Of a stretch of DNA of 7,396 nucleotides, positions 1 through 7,396 are shown one piece after another. Source of the stretch: Lachnospiraceae bacterium (GTDB lineage Bacteria > Bacillota_A > Clostridia > Lachnospirales > Lachnospiraceae); the NCBI GenBank assembly GCA_017960415.1, contig JAGCZE010000343.1, positions 1-7,396 of the forward strand, read 5' to 3'. Each line of letters begins with the position of its first letter. Positions within the stretch are counted from its first letter, which is position 1. The notes under the pieces were generated by a model. That model had not been told where the DNA came from and ran no database searches. It saw nothing but the letters and a program-made list of their open reading frames with translations. A program made the translations under genes and the position numbers.

Positions 1-1283
1 GGGAAGACAGAAGATTTAACAATATTACCGAGGTATGGCTCGGGGGCGATCATTACAAGTGGAGGCTGATGCGCGCGAACGGTGTGGATGAGAGATTTAT
101 TACCGGCGACGCACCCGCAAAGGAGAAATTTTTTAAATTTGCGGAGACCCTTGAAAAGTGTATCGGCAACCCCGTTCACCAGTGGAGCCATCTCGAGCTG
201 CGCAGATACTTCGGCTATGCCGGAGCTCTTAACAGCAAGACCGCCGAAGAAGTCTGGAATCTGTGCAATCAGAAGCTTGCACTGCCTGAATTCTCCGCAC
301 GCGGTATCATGGAAATGTCAAATGTGAAGCTTGTCTGCACAACTGACGATCCGGTTGACAGCCTTGAGTATCATGAGAAGATCAAGGCCGACGAAAGCTT
401 CAATATCAAGGTTCTTCCCGCATGGAGACCCGACAAGATCGTAAATATCGAAAAGTCTGATTTCGCGGACTATGTTAATAAACTTGCCAAGGCAGCGGAC
501 ACCGAGATCGTATGCATCAAGTGCGTGAAGCGTGCCCTGAAAGCCCGTATGGATTTCTTCGCAGCTCATGGCTGCAATGTGGCCGATCACGGCATTGAGT
601 ATGCCCCTTATGAGCCCTGCACTGAGGCGGAAGCTTCGGAGATCTTCAAGAAGGCTTATGCAGGCGGAGAGGTTACCGCAAAAGAGATCGCACAGTACAA
701 GACCCATATGCTGCAGTTCTTCGGCATGGAATATGCTCAGCGCAATTGGGTAATGCAGCTTCATTACGGTTGCAAGCGTAACAATAACGGATATATGTTC
801 AAACAGCTCGGACCCGATACCGGCTACGACTGCATCTTAAACGGCGCTCCCGGTCCCCAGCTGGCTGATTTCCTTGATTCGCTTGCAACTGAGAACAAGC
901 TTCCCAAGACTATCATTTACAGCCTCGATCCGAATGACAACGCAGTCATTGAAACCATCATGGGCTGCTTCCAGAATTCCGATGCCATCGGCAAGCTCCA
1001 GCACGGTTCGGCATGGTGGTTCAACGATCACCGCGACGGCATGGAAGCCCAGATGAAGTCCCTTGCCAATGAGGGCGTACTGGGCAATTTCATTGGAATG
1101 CTCACCGATTCACGTTCCTTCCTTTCCTACCCGAGACATGAGTACTTCAGGCGCATCATGTGCAACCTGATAGCCGGTTTCGTTGAAAAAGGCGAGTATC
1201 CTTGGGATGAGGAAGTCCTCGGCCGCTTGGTGCAGGACATCTCTTATAACAATGCAGTAAGGTATTTTGGATTTGATATTTGA
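1..1283 (+). CDS. uxaC: Glucuronate isomerase (uronate isomerase), 5'-truncated by window start
   Basis: Cytoplasmic enzyme that interconverts D-glucuronate and D-fructuronate (and D-galacturonate and D-tagaturonate), the first step of hexuronate catabolism. The reading frame is open from the first base. The first full codon is at base 3, and the first in-frame ATG at 69 is internal, because the 22 codons before it already match the family (residues NNITEVWLGGDHYKWRLM). The visible 426 residues compare with about 470 for the family, so roughly 44 are missing, including the N-terminal metal-binding HxH motif of this amidohydrolase-superfamily protein. Recognisable family blocks follow in order: MRANGVDERFITGDA, WSHLELRRYFGY, CTTDDPVDSLEYH, LPAWRPDK, WVMQLHYG with RNNNGYMFKQLGPDTGYD, GSAWWFNDHRDGM, and GMLTDSRSFLSYPRHEYFRR near the C-terminus. 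The stop at 1281-1283 lies at the normal family end, so the C-terminus is complete. Promoter and operon partners lie upstream, out of view. Identification is from remembered family motifs and is considered secure. Confidence 0.96.
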   Translation, partial: EDRRFNNITEVWLGGDHYKWRLMRANGVDERFITGDAPAKEKFFKFAETLEKCIGNPVHQWSHLELRRYFGYAGALNSKTAEEVWNLCNQKLALPEFSARGIMEMSNVKLVCTTDDPVDSLEYHEKIKADESFNIKVLPAWRPDKIVNIEKSDFADYVNKLAKAADTEIVCIKCVKRALKARMDFFAAHGCNVADHGIEYAPYEPCTEAEASEIFKKAYAGGEVTAKEIAQYKTHMLQFFGMEYAQRNWVMQLHYGCKRNNNGYMFKQLGPDTGYDCILNGAPGPQLADFLDSLATENKLPKTIIYSLDPNDNAVIETIMGCFQNSDAIGKLQHGSAWWFNDHRDGMEAQMKSLANEGVLGNFIGMLTDSRSFLSYPRHEYFRRIMCNLIAGFVEKGEYPWDEEVLGRLVQDISYNNAVRYFGFDI

Positions 1284-1313: not shown

Positions 1314-1612
1314 GGGAAAGTGCGGCGGCCCCTATCTTAATATCGCAGCCATTTACATTACATAAGGCTCTGTCCGGGCAGCTCCCTGTCCGGATTGCAA
1401 CCGCAACGCCTCGTCAAACTTCCGCTAAGAAGCAGTAACACTCTCAGGAGTGCCTTCGAGTGTAACTGCTTCTAAGCGGTGATTTTGACTCGGCTAAAAC
1501 CGCGGGTCTATCCGACAAATGCAATCCGGACAGGGACTACCCGTCACGAGCCTTTTCTTTTTGTGCAAGAGGCTGCGATATTAAGATAGGGGCCGTCGCA
1601 CTTTCAATCCCC
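1314..1612. repeat. ~300-bp nested imperfect palindrome (three stacked stems)
   Basis: Most of the gap after uxaC folds back on itself. The outer stem pairs 1317-1350 with 1571-1604: 34 positions, 33 Watson-Crick and one G-T (G1325/T1596, a G-U wobble in RNA). GGG at 1314-1316 can extend it against CCC at 1609-1611 across a 4-base bulge. The middle stem pairs 1364-1370 with 1548-1554 (7 bp) and 1383-1399 with 1520-1536 (17 bp, perfect). The inner stem pairs 1413-1418 with 1484-1489 (6 bp) and 1422-1443 with 1458-1479 (20 of 22), closing on a 14-base loop. The 3' half has about 17 extra bases around 1494-1515. No protein frame was recognised inside. It could be a mobile hairpin element of MITE type, a structured RNA, or a processing or termination structure. 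No clear target-site duplication was found at the edges. The fold is read directly from the sequence; the function is unknown. Confidence 0.88.
1364..1562 (+). terminator. Probable intrinsic terminator for uxaC (inner part of the palindrome)
   Basis: The middle and inner stems of the large palindrome form a long GC-containing hairpin. It closes with AAGGCTC (1364-1370) against GAGCCTT (1548-1554). It is followed directly by the T-rich run TTTTCTTTTT at 1553-1562, which gives a rho-independent terminator layout on the plus strand, 80 bases after the uxaC stop. The minus-strand equivalent lacks a T-tract, so it would act in one direction. The hairpin is far longer than a usual terminator and is enclosed by another 34-bp stem, so termination may be only one of its roles. 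Confidence 0.5.
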
Positions 1613-1765: not shown

Positions 1766-3997
1766 ATGTACACAAAGATCATATATGTTGTTATAGATAT
1801 CATTTCGATCCTCAGCATTAATTTTACGATACATGCACTTAGAAAAGTAAAACAGGAATACGGGCGTTTACTGCGCTTTGCCCTGTCTTTTGCGGTCATT
1901 GCCATTCTGGCCAATATTATGATCGCTTTATCGGTCAATGCAACTATGGCTGATCTGGCATACAGCCTGTATTTTGCCTCTATCGACTGGATACTCCTTT
2001 ATCTGACCGGATTCTGCCTCGCATATACCGATCATGAGAAAGCAGTCGGGATTTTGAAGCTTCCCACGATCATCATAGTTTCGGTCGATTCGCTTATTAT
2101 GCTTTCAAACCATGCAACCGGCTTTGTCTTCGATATCTATGAGAAAAACATATCAAATACGGTCTTTTTTCAGACCAATTCCCGGCCTGTCTATTACATA
2201 CATCTTGCGATAGATTACATCGCTGTCGTTATCACGTTCTTAATGATCCTCTACAGAGTTGTCAAGAGCTATGACATGTACAGATTGAAATATATAATGA
2301 TATTCCTGGTCCTGGTGTTCGTTATAGGACTTAATCTCGTTTGTATGGCTTTTTCGCTGGTTCTTGATGCTTCAATAGTATTTTATGCGGTTGCGGGAAC
2401 CCTGATTTATATACTGATCACGCGGTATGTTCCGAGAAAGCTCATGAACGGGTCCATCGGCATGGCGGTTAATGACATGAAGGAAGGCCTGATCCTGTTT
2501 GATGCGAATGCTGAGTGCATTTTCGCCAACACATTTTCGAAAAATCATTTCTCGCTTACCGAAGAAACCGCAACCTTTGAAGCGGAGCCGATGGCAACGG
2601 TGTTGAAATCCCTTGAGGAAGACGGTAAAGAATTTGGCAAGGCCACTTATATCCAAACATCTGTGAACGAAGACGGGAAAACTAAAGAAGAACATTATCA
2701 GATCCGATACAATGCCCTGAAAGACAGGAAAGACCGTCAGATCGGCTCATACATGCTGATCGAGGATGTTACCGAAGAGGTTTCTTATCTGAAACAGTTG
2801 AGAGATGCGCGTAACAAGGCAGATGATGCCAATCGCGCCAAGAGCCTTTTCCTTGCAAACATGTCTCACGAGATCCGCACGCCTCTCAATGCCGTTCTCG
2901 GTATGAACGAAATGATACTGAGGGAAGCCAAGGTGCCCGAACTGGTCAACTATGCCGAAAATATCCATACTTCAGGTACCGTCCTTCTTAACCTGATCAA
3001 CGATATACTCGATTTTTCAAGGATAGAAGCTCACAAAATGGATGTAACACCGGTAGAATATGAGCCCCATGCATTATTGAGGGATATGTGCAACCGCTTC
3101 GATAATATGGCTGAGGAAAAGGGCCTGTATCTGGATATAAACTGTGACAGGGATATTCCGCTGAAGCTTATCGGGGATGAGAAGCATCTGACCCAGATTC
3201 TGAGCAACATAATCTCCAATGCGATCAAATACACGAGAAAAGGCGGGATCACAGTCAATGTGGACGCAACGGTTCCTGTAAATGATGAAGTCACGATCAT
3301 ATTTAATGTGACGGATACCGGTATAGGAATTGAAACAAATGATATACAATATCTGTTTGACGCTTTTGAGCGCGTCAATGAGAAGGAAAACGCGACTATT
3401 CAGGGTACGGGCCTCGGGCTTGCGATCACAAAGGAACTTGTTGAACTGATGGGTGGATCGATCCGTGTTGAAAGCGAGCTCGGAAATGGCAGTTCGTTTA
3501 TTGTTTCGATCACACAGAAGATCGCCGATCCGTCTCCGGCAGGACCGTTCAACAAAGACGTGGAGAACAGCCCGCAGATATACAGGGAAAGCTTCCGTGC
3601 GCCCCAGGCCAGGATGCTGATAGTTGATGATGTGGAGGTTAATATCATAGTTATCCGTGAACTCCTGCGTGAGACACAGATCCGAATAGACAGCGCCAAC
3701 AGCGGAGATGAAGCGATCGCAATGTGCCGCGAGAATAAATACGATCTGATCCTGCTTGACCACAGAATGCCGAAAAAAGACGGTATCGAGACTTACAGGG
3801 AACTTTGCGGGGATACGGTATTCGGAATGAATACGACCACTCCGGTCATCATGCTTACAGCCAATGCCCTGAGCGGTGCAGATGCGGAATATAAAAATCT
3901 GGGCTTCGCCGATTACCTGACGAAGCCCATAGATAGCAAGGAACTTGAAATGGCGCTGGTCAGACTGCTCCCGAAGGAGAAGGTGACCGTCACCTGA
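1766..3997 (+). CDS. Membrane hybrid histidine kinase (7TM - PAS-like - HisKA - HATPase - REC)
   Basis: Membrane sensor kinase of 743 residues. The start is fixed by AAGGA at 1752-1756 and by an in-frame TAA at 1757-1759. Hydrophobic segments at about 1-22, 35-57, 65-88, 97-114, 143-165, 174-199 and 203-220 suggest a seven-helix sensor of the HisKA_7TM kind. A PAS-like region (about 230-340) and a coiled linker (about 341-362) follow. HisKA carries the phospho-accepting His368 in SHEIRTPLN. HATPase shows the N-box Asn485, G1 DTGIG at 517-521, the F-box near 530-534 and G2 GTGLGL at 547-552. The receiver (about 616-735) has Asp621-Asp622, phospho-acceptor Asp665 (in LLDHRMP), Thr698 and Lys720, so every key residue of kinase and receiver is present. 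There is no HPt or output domain, so phosphate must pass to an HPt protein or regulator encoded elsewhere. It is convergent with the citrate synthase-like gene and paralogous to the kinase beginning at 5706. The stimulus is unknown. Confidence 0.93.
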   Translation: MYTKIIYVVIDIISILSINFTIHALRKVKQEYGRLLRFALSFAVIAILANIMIALSVNATMADLAYSLYFASIDWILLYLTGFCLAYTDHEKAVGILKLPTIIIVSVDSLIMLSNHATGFVFDIYEKNISNTVFFQTNSRPVYYIHLAIDYIAVVITFLMILYRVVKSYDMYRLKYIMIFLVLVFVIGLNLVCMAFSLVLDASIVFYAVAGTLIYILITRYVPRKLMNGSIGMAVNDMKEGLILFDANAECIFANTFSKNHFSLTEETATFEAEPMATVLKSLEEDGKEFGKATYIQTSVNEDGKTKEEHYQIRYNALKDRKDRQIGSYMLIEDVTEEVSYLKQLRDARNKADDANRAKSLFLANMSHEIRTPLNAVLGMNEMILREAKVPELVNYAENIHTSGTVLLNLINDILDFSRIEAHKMDVTPVEYEPHALLRDMCNRFDNMAEEKGLYLDINCDRDIPLKLIGDEKHLTQILSNIISNAIKYTRKGGITVNVDATVPVNDEVTIIFNVTDTGIGIETNDIQYLFDAFERVNEKENATIQGTGLGLAITKELVELMGGSIRVESELGNGSSFIVSITQKIADPSPAGPFNKDVENSPQIYRESFRAPQARMLIVDDVEVNIIVIRELLRETQIRIDSANSGDEAIAMCRENKYDLILLDHRMPKKDGIETYRELCGDTVFGMNTTTPVIMLTANALSGADAEYKNLGFADYLTKPIDSKELEMALVRLLPKEKVTVT

Positions 3998-4048: not shown

Positions 4049-5449
4049 TTACCTGATCTCTATGCCGGACGCGATCAGTTCGTCTTTGTACAGATCGACC
4101 TGTGCCTGCATCTCGGCATCCGAGATAAGAGTAACACGGCCGTTATCATATTCATTATCGACCCAGGCCTTGATCTTCTCGCATACGGGATGCTTCTTGC
4201 TGATGGCCTTGTCGAAGCTTAAGTTGTAGCGGCGGTTGATCCAGCATGCGATGCCTGCGATACCCGAAGAATTGTTGACCGAAACCGCAGCGGGGCGGCC
4301 GAGGATCTTCTCGGTATCGAAAATGTTGTATATCTCTTCGTCCTTCAACAGACCGTCGGCGTGAATGCCCGCACGTGTCAGATTGAAATTGCGGCCGACG
4401 AAGGGAGTCATCGGAGGAAGATCGTAACCGGTCTCATTTACGATATAATCGGCGAGCTCTGTGATGACCTTCGGATCCATGCCGTTGAAATGTCCGCGCA
4501 GCGAAGCATATTCCATTACCATGGCTTCGGTGGGAACATTACCTGTTCTCTCACCGATGCCGAGCAATGAGCAGTTAACGGCGCCGCAGCCGTACATCCA
4601 GGCAGTAGCCGCATTAACGACACCCTTATAGAAATCGTTGTGGCCGTGCCACTCGAGCATCTCGCTCGGGAATCCCGCGTAATGCCTGAAACCGTAGACC
4701 ATACCGGCGATCGAGCGGGGCAGCGAAACACCGACATAAGGGATACCGTAACCCATGGTATCGCAGATCCTGAGCTTGATCGGAACACCGCTCTCCTCGG
4801 AAAGACGTGCAAGTGCGGTCGTAAACGGGATGACAAAACCGTAGAAATCGTCTCTCGTGATATCCTCCAAGTGGCAGCGGGGACGCAGGCCGGCCTCGAT
4901 ACAATCCTTGGCGATACCCATATATTTATCGAGTGCCTGGGCACGTGTCAGGCCCATCTTGTTGAAGATGTGATAATCGGAGGCGCTCATCAGTACACCG
5001 GTTTCCTTGACGCCCAGATCTTTGACCAGCTCGAAATCCTTCTTGGAAGCCCTGATCCATGTGGTGATCTCGGGAAAATCATATCCGAGTTCCATACATT
5101 TTTCCAGTGCGTCCCTGTCCTTCTTGGTATACCCGAAGAATTCTGTCTGGCGGATCATGCCTTTCGGTCCGCCCAGACGATGGAGCTTCTTGTAGATCTC
5201 GACCATCTGCTCGGTCGTATAAGGGGTTCTGGACTGCTGACCGTCGCGGAACGTAGTATCTGTTATAAAGATATCCTCGGGCATATTGGAGGGAACCTTA
5301 CGATAGTTAAAGGCTACCTTCGGAACCTCGGTATAAGGATATATCTCACGGAAAAGCTCAGGATCCTTAACATCCTGGAGCTGATATGAGTAGGGATCCT
5401 GCTCAAGCAGATTTGTATGAGGATTTAACAAAAGTGTATTTTTTATCAT
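4049..5449 (-). CDS. Probable Re-citrate synthase (isopropylmalate/homocitrate synthase superfamily)
   Basis: Cytoplasmic Claisen-condensing enzyme of the HMGL-like TIM-barrel family, 466 residues. Visible motifs are DTTFRDGQQ at 64-72 (the catalytic Arg and metal-binding Asp signature), HGHND at 268-272 (metal-binding HxH), GIGERTGN at 297-304, and RAGIHADGLLKD at 359-370 at the start of the C-terminal part. The long N-terminal extension before the barrel, the GGPKGMIRQTEFF block, the CDTMGYG block and the short C-terminal region (no full LeuA regulatory domain) resemble the clostridial Re-citrate synthases known from Clostridium kluyveri, which are often annotated as 2-isopropylmalate synthase. 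The predicted reaction is acetyl-CoA plus oxaloacetate to citrate, feeding 2-oxoglutarate and glutamate synthesis. The ATG at 5449 is preferred: GGAAAGG lies 6 bases upstream, and the alternative TTG at 5464 would bury that site. The gene stands alone between two kinases. Homocitrate or isopropylmalate synthase remain alternatives; no leucine or aconitase genes adjoin. Confidence 0.82.
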   Translation of the reverse strand: MIKNTLLLNPHTNLLEQDPYSYQLQDVKDPELFREIYPYTEVPKVAFNYRKVPSNMPEDIFITDTTFRDGQQSRTPYTTEQMVEIYKKLHRLGGPKGMIRQTEFFGYTKKDRDALEKCMELGYDFPEITTWIRASKKDFELVKDLGVKETGVLMSASDYHIFNKMGLTRAQALDKYMGIAKDCIEAGLRPRCHLEDITRDDFYGFVIPFTTALARLSEESGVPIKLRICDTMGYGIPYVGVSLPRSIAGMVYGFRHYAGFPSEMLEWHGHNDFYKGVVNAATAWMYGCGAVNCSLLGIGERTGNVPTEAMVMEYASLRGHFNGMDPKVITELADYIVNETGYDLPPMTPFVGRNFNLTRAGIHADGLLKDEEIYNIFDTEKILGRPAAVSVNNSSGIAGIACWINRRYNLSFDKAISKKHPVCEKIKAWVDNEYDNGRVTLISDAEMQAQVDLYKDELIASGIEIR

Positions 5450-5512
5450 AGCGGTCCTTTCCAAGCAATCAATTCACTTTGTCAATGTAATGTCCTAAAG
5501 TATGTAATCAAT

Positions 5513-5705: not shown

Positions 5706-7396
5706 ATGAAATATCTGACTTATTCCGAGGCGACCGTTTTTCTTTCGGTAACCTTAACTTCGATGATATTTAACATACTGCTCTGCATCATGCTGAAACT
5801 TCTCGGAAGTGCCGATGACAAGAAGGGTGGCGGCTTTCGGCGGCTTGCAACTGTGGTTCTTCTCGGAAGCATTTTAACCTGTGCGGCTGTTTATACACGC
5901 CGGGTCATAAATCCGGCCGTTCCTCGGTATGTCGGTTTATTGATGCATCTGTGTTCTATAGGTGCCAACATCTTACTTACATATTATTTTGCAAGATATG
6001 TCGAAAGTTTCTTCGGCGACAGGGATCGAAACGGCGGATTGATAGAGAAGATCAACAGGAGCCTTGCGGGATGCGGAGCGGCTTCTGTGCTCGTATGTTT
6101 CTTTATTATGCTTCCCGGAGTCAACGAGACCGAGGAAAGCATCACGCTGCCGGGAGCGTATCACTTCATCGCGGGATATCTGATCGAAATTTATTTTATC
6201 CTGTATGCTCTTGTTTATTTTATCAGATTTAAGAAAACCCTGGACAGACGTGCATATATTACTCTTATTGCGGGTTTTGCCGTTACGATCGCCGGGATCG
6301 TTCTCGAACGTCTGAGCTTTATTGAGATCACCTGCAACTATCCGGGCGCGGTCATGGGTCTGTATCTGTTCTATTTCGGAGCTGAAACTGCCGATTACAA
6401 GAAACTGAACACGACCATGGAAGAGCTCAAGGAAGCCAAGGAAAAGGCCGACGCGGCCAATATTGCGAAGTCGGAATTCCTTGCCAACATGTCCCATGAG
6501 ATCCGTACGCCCATCAACGCCGTGCTGGGTATGAATGAGATGATCCTTCGTGAATGCGAGGATCCTGCGATCATCAAGTATGCCCGTGATGTAGAAGGCG
6601 CAGGCAAGAATCTTCTGGCTATCATTAATGATATTCTCGATCTGTCGAAGATCGAGGCAGGCAAGATGGAGCTGGTTGAGGCACCTTACCGTCTGAGCTC
6701 CGTTCTGAATGATGTGGTTAATATGACATCCTTCAGGGCGAAGGCCAAGAATCTGGAACTCGAAGTCCAGGTAAACAGCAATATTCCCGATAATCTGTAC
6801 GGTGATGAAGTGCGTATCAGGCGTATTATAGTCAATCTGCTGAATAATGCCGTAAAATATACCGAAAAGGGCAAAATACGCCTCGATATCAGCGAGAAGC
6901 GCAATGATGGTTCCACAGACCTCATTATCGAGATATCCGATACGGGTATCGGTATAAGGCATAATGATCTGATCAAGCTTTTCAACAGGTTTGACCGTCT
7001 GGATATGTACAGGAACAAAACTGTGGAAGGAACCGGTCTGGGACTGGCCATTACCAGGGGACTGCTGGATCTGATGCAGGGAACCATTGATGTAAGGAGC
7101 GTCTACGGGGAAGGCTCCGTATTTACGGTATCGATCCCTCAGAGAATAGTTGAGGCCGATCCCATAGGCAACTGGCAGGAAAGATACGAAGGAACCCTCA
7201 AGGATAAGGAAAAACACAAAGAGGAATTCCATGCACCCGAAGCACGCATTCTGGTTGTTGACGATACTGTAGTCAATCTGATCGTAGTACAGAATCTGCT
7301 CAAACACTCCGAGATGCAGATCGATACGGCTGCCAGCGGTCAGGAAATGCTGGATATGGCCGAACAGACCAAATATGATATTATTCTTCTCGATCA
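5706..7396 (+). CDS. Second membrane hybrid histidine kinase (7TM - HisKA - HATPase - REC), 3'-truncated by window end
   Basis: Membrane sensor kinase, 563 complete codons visible. The start is fixed by GAGGA at 5695-5699 and by an in-frame TGA at 5694-5696. Seven hydrophobic segments are seen at about residues 8-31, 46-64, 74-98, 119-137, 151-174, 182-201 and 212-226. A short coiled linker (about 228-255) then leads straight into the kinase with no PAS domain. HisKA holds His264 in SHEIRTPIN. HATPase shows N-box Asn381, G1 DTGIG at 412-416 and G2 GTGLGL at 442-447. A linker (about 480-512) precedes the receiver, with Asp519-Asp520. Its phospho-acceptor, Asp563 in IILLDH, is the last complete codon of the window. 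The rest of the receiver and any further domain lie outside. The kinase core and receiver are clearly paralogous to the kinase at 1766-3997, but the sensor half is not recognisably similar. The gene is divergent from the citrate synthase-like gene, 256 bases apart. Ligand and target are unknown. Confidence 0.92.
   Translation, partial: MKYLTYSEATVFLSVTLTSMIFNILLCIMLKLLGSADDKKGGGFRRLATVVLLGSILTCAAVYTRRVINPAVPRYVGLLMHLCSIGANILLTYYFARYVESFFGDRDRNGGLIEKINRSLAGCGAASVLVCFFIMLPGVNETEESITLPGAYHFIAGYLIEIYFILYALVYFIRFKKTLDRRAYITLIAGFAVTIAGIVLERLSFIEITCNYPGAVMGLYLFYFGAETADYKKLNTTMEELKEAKEKADAANIAKSEFLANMSHEIRTPINAVLGMNEMILRECEDPAIIKYARDVEGAGKNLLAIINDILDLSKIEAGKMELVEAPYRLSSVLNDVVNMTSFRAKAKNLELEVQVNSNIPDNLYGDEVRIRRIIVNLLNNAVKYTEKGKIRLDISEKRNDGSTDLIIEISDTGIGIRHNDLIKLFNRFDRLDMYRNKTVEGTGLGLAITRGLLDLMQGTIDVRSVYGEGSVFTVSIPQRIVEADPIGNWQERYEGTLKDKEKHKEEFHAPEARILVVDDTVVNLIVVQNLLKHSEMQIDTAASGQEMLDMAEQTKYDIILLD

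Follow-up and report, generated by a model that had tools for sequence, protein, structure and literature searches.

A dispersed, apparently unnamed family of nested-hairpin repeats in Lachnospiraceae

Bacterial MITEs such as the Correia/NEMIS and BOX elements are non-autonomous, multi-copy and hairpin-forming, and show nested insertion. The attC sites of integrons act as a folded single DNA strand, in which the structure rather than the stem sequence is kept and the unpaired letters are conserved. The CGTC-tagged REPs have been described as lacking a dedicated transposase, with stems of 8–9 bp, a CGTC tag and, in most cases, a CCA tail; the main text of that source, as available, includes 0 mentions of Firmicutes, Clostrid or Lachnospir (PMC3733652). 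For real RNA genes, template switching has been proposed to make and repair perfect stems in one event and with no G-U intermediates, as set out in the available part of PMC8794818. The nested hairpin described here lies in a 7,396-nucleotide stretch of Lachnospiraceae DNA, which as a whole is called the window. It belongs to a dispersed chromosomal, non-coding nested-hairpin repeat family of gut and rumen bacteria (Lachnospiraceae). The family is apparently unnamed, as the titles and abstract starts of the open-licence literature included no description matching it.

The hairpin at 1316-1605 is real and 290 bases long (Table 1). The preliminary description had placed three stacked stems here, and both its coordinates and its stems hold, with the outer stem as given in the table. 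The next layer inward from the outer stem is 7 bp long (1364-1370/1548-1554), and an inner stem of 6 bp (1413-1418/1484-1489) lies between the middle stem and the tip. The spacers between the outer and middle stems, 13 and 16 bases long and weakly paired, were absent from that description. The 14-base loop of the tip is itself closed by AGG/CCT. Folded as RNA, the hairpin reached -188.7 kcal/mol (z = -17.3), which none of 100 dinucleotide shuffles equalled. The longest perfect inverted repeat with arms at most 400 bases apart was 25 in the window and 9–11 in ten mononucleotide shuffles, and it dropped to 10 when the hairpin was removed. No ORF of at least 50 aa was found inside the hairpin, in agreement with the earlier statement that it carries no recognised protein.

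Table 1. Positions of the hairpin, its parts and its flanking genes in the window.
Feature	Position	Strand	Remark
uxaC (glucuronate isomerase)	3..1283	+	upstream flank; start lies before the window
Outer stem arms	1316..1350 x 1571..1605		35 pairs, single G-T at 1325/1596
ATCTTAATATCGC	1334..1346	+	least variable part of the outer module within the window's genus
Middle module, core and tip	1366..1553	+	found without outer arms in G023:C123 (L112)
Middle stem	1383..1399 x 1520..1536		17 bp, perfect
Conserved core, left half	1401..1418	+	CCGC AAC GCC .. GTCAAA; unpaired AAC kept family-wide
Tip hairpin	1422..1479 (1422-1443/1458-1479)		20/22 pairs, two A-A mismatches
Conserved core, right half	1481..1520	+	GATTTTGAC .. 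GGCTAAAACCGCGG .. ACAAAT; small hairpin 1506-1516
Inverted partner of ATCTTAATATCGC	1575..1587	-	nearly constant in the genus alignment
7TM hybrid histidine kinase	1766..3997	+	downstream flank

The closest genome was G001 (Lachnospiraceae MAG RUI380), with 90% protein identity through the HMGL-like protein encoded at 4049-5464. It included 23 hairpin matches at E ≤ 1, of which 11 had E ≤ 0.003 and three were near full length with 76–78% identity. Among 14 genomes reached through loci, convincing matches were present only in G001, the best match elsewhere having E 0.007. When a G001 copy was used as query, relatives were found in 11 of the 24 genomes of its genus. The genus alignment was formed of fifteen full copies, arm to arm. 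In it, ATCTTAATATCGC hardly varies, nor does its inverted partner; the middle stem is variable yet mostly paired, and the outer arms and ends were common to the copies within the genus. Also the pattern ATCTTAATATCGC alone, with A or C allowed at position 6, had matches in 19 of the 24 genus genomes, some of the single ones plainly chance matches inside genes, while the reversed control pattern had 0. In most genus copies the right outer arm includes an additional stretch (about TWCGCCACGCCCGAGCC). It is missing from the window copy (1588-1605), and the outer stem of the window is therefore more perfect than those of the genus copies. Terminators of the form CGCACT/AGTGCG (L105-L110) were counted 16 times in G001 and 0–3 times per genome in the 23 others of the genus.

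Two covariance models were used in the wider scans: R1, a model of the core, and R2, a broader model built from alignment A4. A4 consisted of 40 cores picked among the hits, the most divergent omitted and the window core being one of the rows, so that its score of 104.6 bits with R2 comes from a model that includes it. R1 was detected in at least 21 and R2 in at least 37 of 397 Lachnospiraceae genomes, these being lower bounds since the best 8 candidates at most were scored per genome under strict filters. Within Clostridia, at least three of 391 genomes were positive for R2, namely G001 and two others, all three also present in the Lachnospiraceae sample; the two others were positive in the Lachnospiraceae scan as well. 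Copies were counted in 12 positive genomes with at most 150 candidates scored in each, and the number of R2 matches ranged from 7 to 49 (G429 49, G138 41, G062 23, G415 15, G370 14, G333 14, G337 12, G399 10, G151 10, G266 8, G093 8, G401 7). G138 is near-complete, contig 1 covering 3.59 of about 3.7 Mb. The preliminary description had named a private hairpin as an alternative, which does not stand next to this many homologues in related Lachnospiraceae.

The family copies are mostly intergenic. When the neighbouring proteins were clustered by sequence, the largest cluster had five members (kinases), the next three, and the remainder were pairs; several of the clusters were orthologous loci. 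In G337, six similar copies are present at unrelated places, with 91–99.5% identity in pairwise stretches. Directly beside five of these six (L211-L216) lies a second palindromic repeat of about 300 bases, which at L216 is present on the opposite side too, in inverted orientation. The ends of this repeat are similar to the outer ends (ATTTTGG) of the G337 copies. Among the six, L213 abuts a stretch which by eye, from its motif, may be an IS3-type transposase gene. At L390 (G429:C45), three tandem copies and one inverted copy lie within 1.8 kb, and the G138 orthologue L210 has one copy and a fragment; tandem or inverted pairs were seen also at L182, L187 and L206. The right flank of L233 in G062 includes a GT-rich repeat, CCGGGAAAGATGGCACGGGG, with dozens more matches in the same genome, which is a separate repeat family.

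The layers of the hairpin come apart. Hairpins consisting of the outer module without the core, 135–136 bases arm to arm, were found at L149, L151, L154, L156 and L180, and shorter or interrupted coreless forms at L158, L152 and L157; such forms were sought, and seen, only in the window's genus. The opposite case is L112, which is 95% identical to window positions 1366-1553 over 188 bases and lacks the outer arms; as a yardstick, the best uxaC match in the genus has 88% identity. The arms of the G062 copies are about 28–127 bp long and mostly nearly perfect, and four of them had neither a second long copy in G062 nor a match to one another. The arms form 21–37 pairs in 22 of the 24 G138 copies, and their ends recur, usually as GGACG .. 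CTG; two copies, L362 and L374, are broken. In 14 of 276 pairs of G138 copies, the left arms had short stretches in common (E ≤ 0.01), which partly consist of the end motif. The near-perfect arms had earlier been taken to indicate recent origin or strong constraint, of which half holds: distant copies have arms of about equal perfection but mostly unrelated sequence. Outside the window's genus, the arms thus appear to keep their complementarity, while their sequence seems free or exchanged.

Tip and outer-core identities were uncorrelated in G138 (rho 0.09, p 0.12; 276 pairs, from 24 of the 41 matches). A tip identity of at least 93% was combined with an outer-core identity of at most 75% in nine of the 276 pairs, and a tip of at most 60% with an outer core of at least 93% in ten. 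Eight orthologous pairs between G138 and G429 were aligned out of 38 fetched loci, leaving out L210/L390 (tandem) and L372/L386 (weak flanks). The left arm was kept in all eight and the right arm was recognisable in seven; it has several changes in L189/L389, and in L362 a deletion cuts it. Four of the eight (L374/L382, L368/L381, L370/L194 and L189/L389) had a tip of another type. In L370/L194 and L189/L389, the outer flanks correspond to two separate loci in the other genome, and it is therefore possible that recombination took place between copies, or that the assembly is the cause. The flanks are re-sorted such that the left flank and element of L189 correspond to L389 and its right flank to L194, the element of which corresponds to L370. 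The window copy itself is mixed, with a core closest to G024 (0.93; tip 0.62–0.68) and a tip closest to G023 and G001 (0.80–0.89; cores 0.80–0.88). Across the 15 genus copies, core and tip identities were correlated (rho 0.58), and judging from these alignments, module shuffling appears strong only in G138 and G429. At L376/L395, L189/L389, L205 and L184, the left flank has degenerate tandem repeats of the left arm next to the GGACG end, as if copying had begun anew there more than once, and the number of the units differs between orthologues. At L199 and L200 the tip has been swapped for a much longer hairpin, which in L200 looks like a complete intrinsic terminator.

Homologue search and covariation had been named as checks in the preliminary description. 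In A4, 29 of the 31 core pairs were found to change on both sides, with 94.6% of the cells pairing. The covariation was 0.589 in comparison to 0.205 ± 0.010 in shuffled alignments (0 of 500 as high), and at most 0.144 in slid controls. Unpaired columns were more conserved than paired ones (0.835 vs 0.752, p 0.003; inner part, family-wide average), which suggests that something reads the loops.

The kinds of pairs were counted as Watson-Crick/G-T/A-C. The counts were 1132/31/31 for the 40 cores of A4, 1748/19/11 for the 60 copies from three genomes in alignment A5, and 1458/8/10 for the 50 A5 rows outside A4. The control, 27 tRNAs from the fetched loci, gave 539/39/0, helped by ARAGORN's own preference of G-U over A-C. 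The 15 genus copies gave 995/9/15 over 69 pairs, with five pairs of poor alignment and one that is T-G in every copy omitted; the count becomes 995/24/15 when the constant pair is included and 1038/33/18 over all 75 pairs. In the outer arms, counting by local alignment was noisy and gave opposite directions, with G-T:A-C mismatches of 27:49 in 16 genus hits and 152:116 in 61 others. A selected RNA would tolerate G-U but not A-C, and the parity of G-T and A-C therefore points to a hairpin kept at the DNA level. The comparison is conservative, because the covariance models that collected the members favour G-U. Several A5 columns also show whole changes from G-C to A-T with no intermediates, as expected if both sides change in a single event, e.g. 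by template switching. These changes support change at the DNA level more firmly than they exclude use as RNA. The parity could likewise arise by template switching that erases mismatches before selection sees them. Since this mechanism, in the available part of its source, is proposed for RNA genes, also an RNA function is compatible with parity (PMC8794818). Because the genus count depends on the pairs kept, our confidence in the DNA-level reading was lowered slightly and that in the RNA reading raised by a similarly small step.

The gap between uxaC and the kinase gene is 482 bases in the window and, by eye and measured to the first ATG, about 114 in the relative G030, the orthologues of which are 88% (uxaC) and 71% (kinase) identical to those of the window. 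No hairpin is present between the two genes in G030, and the R2 core model had no match there. The intergenic DNA of G030 is too diverged from the window to be aligned or to give breakpoints. Four further uxaC orthologues (L296-L299) are followed by different sequence and L300 ends too early; R2 had no match in L295-L300, L001 or L002. In G001, the kinase adjoins an HMGL-like gene, with no hairpin before it, and uxaC is on a separate contig. The hairpin would have been either inserted at the window junction or lost in G030, and its absence from the orthologous site points to insertion. A promoter-like match (TTGTAA-17-TATAAT, with TG before the second hexamer; 3 found, 0.7 expected) lies at 1677-1705 between the hairpin and the kinase gene, which may therefore have its own promoter. 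The HMGL-like gene of the window, on the opposite strand, sits between two related hybrid histidine kinases at 1766-3997 and 5706-7394. At L235 (G062:C65), the neighbour of a copy is by clustering a homologue of the window uxaC, possibly by chance.

Several known classes were rejected. The preliminary description had held the hairpin to be neither an ordinary intrinsic terminator nor a named RNA class, and both statements are borne out: its size and the lack of a T run after 1605 do not fit a terminator (three weak consensus matches inside the hairpin, 0.7 expected), and no Rfam 15 model matched the window at E ≤ 1. When E ≤ 5 was allowed in 15 + 18 copy-bearing loci, the Rfam matches that touched a copy or its flank were all at chance level, namely mir-1756 (E 1.1 and 2.1) inside the copy of L131 and a T-box (E 2.5) beside that of L195. 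The Rfam models of group II introns, HEARO and retrons had no match in the window or the copy loci; as to a neighbouring reverse transcriptase or endonuclease gene, the proteins beside the copies formed unannotated clusters of at most five. A phage, plasmid or viral origin was rejected as those records included no credible match to the family, only one chance-like plasmid match of 30 bases. Spacer-like memory, in which the arms would derive from phage or from other parts of the genome, was rejected by a thin test, in which four G062 right arms with their flanks had full-length matches only to their own loci among the best 40 of 88 candidates, the weaker partial matches lying almost wholly in flanking stretches. 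Phage records included nothing that matched the arm region of L233 (L233:780-1020), and viral contigs nothing that matched one 20-mer, a similarly thin test. Drift of the arms by silent correction alone is not favoured, as arms are kept between orthologues and most paralogues differ, although the 14 of 276 G138 left-arm pairs with short common stretches are a point on the other side. Also a Y1 transposase was rejected as partner, being present in five of 11 genus genomes with the repeat vs seven of 13 without it, and absent from five of 17 repeat-bearing genomes, some of which may be incomplete drafts. A Y1 gene of G062 lies about 1.3 kb from the C89 copy, which with four Y1 matches and 23 copies may be chance.

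The preliminary description had rightly considered that the pattern suits either a structured RNA or a hairpin-type mobile element. As a structured non-coding RNA family, the core would be an RNA domain, the outer stems long dsRNA clamps and the copies transcripts or 3' UTR elements. This agrees with the strong covariation, the conserved unpaired letters, the fixed orientation of the core, the constant T-G pair, and the location of 12 of 16 genus hits downstream of a same-strand gene, as the window copy after uxaC. The RNA half of the earlier proposal thus gains from the covariation, but it is weakened by A4 and A5, in which G-U is not in excess over A-C despite models favouring G-U. Neither does it gain from Rfam, nor from the strand relative to the upstream gene, which is near even overall (43 of 77 hits the same, L210 and L245 being one locus counted twice), and the RNA reading is considered unlikely. 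A classical MITE, with terminal inverted repeats by which a DDE transposase moves it, would account for the six similar G337 copies at unrelated places, for the nested palindromes and for the intergenic spread. The family, however, has no shared terminal inverted repeats: the window's genus, G062/G138 and G337 each have arms and ends of their own, and within G062 and G138 these mostly vary from copy to copy too. In addition, copy-specific arms are foreign to MITEs and no partner is evident among the clustered neighbour proteins. No target duplication was seen by eye in the copy flanks, and none is clear in G337 because the second hairpin repeat adjoins five of the six copies. A MITE of this kind is very improbable. 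The copy-specific complementary arms would be explained if the core inserts into the loops of pre-existing hairpins, e.g. intrinsic terminators, the arms being the target's own stem. The arms of the window do resemble the stereotyped terminators of G001 (CGCACT-loop-AGTGCG, 16 matches vs 2 in the control), and a complete terminator stem is present at one end of several copies or ends (L097, L102, L115, L148, L151). Against this stand the G138 arms, of similar length and with recurring ends in most copies as if the element's own, and the confinement of the coreless hairpins to the one genus in which they were sought; insertion into loops is regarded as quite unlikely.

With moderate confidence, the family is best explained as a non-autonomous DNA-hairpin repeat whose copies diversify through template switching or through conversion among one another. 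This explanation starts from the observed dispersal, covariation, modularity and absence from the orthologous site in G030, and from these we infer that it is as DNA that the structure acts, in the form of a single-strand hairpin or a cruciform exposed in replication. A polymerase or recombination intermediate would enter one copy and then switch template. A switch to the opposite arm would keep the arms complementary, and a switch made at the conserved internal loops, into a different copy, would exchange whatever lies inside that loop in one piece. New copies would arise by rare insertion into intergenic DNA by a putative enzyme supplied in trans; neither a transposase partner nor active movement was seen among the examined copies. 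It is possible, though doubtful, that the family is a new kind of modular DNA element, in which concentric layers (locus-specific arms, core families and tip families) are exchanged independently among dozens of copies via the conserved internal loops. If so, the chromosome would carry a combinatorial repertoire of folded single strands recognised by their shape, which would be maintained by template switching and possibly used by a recombinase or a replication or repair factor.

The findings add a large, covarying and apparently unnamed repeat family to a major family of gut and rumen bacteria, and make it testable how long perfect stems arise and remain perfect. As a genome may have as many as 49 paralogues, the loops are conserved and orthologues differ by whole tips, template switching or conversion could be read event by event. 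The count of G-T vs A-C pairs is a simple and portable way to ask at which level, RNA or DNA, a covarying palindrome is maintained.

The family resembles the bacterial MITEs in being non-autonomous, multi-copy, hairpin-forming and nested, and differs from them in having no family-wide terminal inverted repeat, no clear target site duplication, copy-specific arms outside the window's genus, and shuffling modules. With attC sites it shares the keeping of structure over stem sequence and the conservation of unpaired letters, but here the conserved part is at the apex with the variable arms outside, and no cassette array was seen. Like REPs and BIMEs, it consists of dispersed intergenic palindromic DNA, and the CGTC REPs are likewise described as lacking a dedicated transposase (PMC3733652). 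Most G138 and G062 copies begin with GGACG, the reverse complement of which is CGTCC, a likeness to the CGTC tag that is a lead only (PMC3733652). In contrast to the REP/RAYT system, in which RAYT is a Y1 transposase and the REPs are described as single hairpins of 20–40 bp, the copies here are about 190–400 bases long (290 in the window), with a multi-stem conserved core. Template-switch hairpins are described for RNA genes, and the exchange of nested tips between dispersed copies is absent from the available part of that description, but what both would have in common is perfect stems made and repaired in one event, with no G-U intermediates (PMC8794818).
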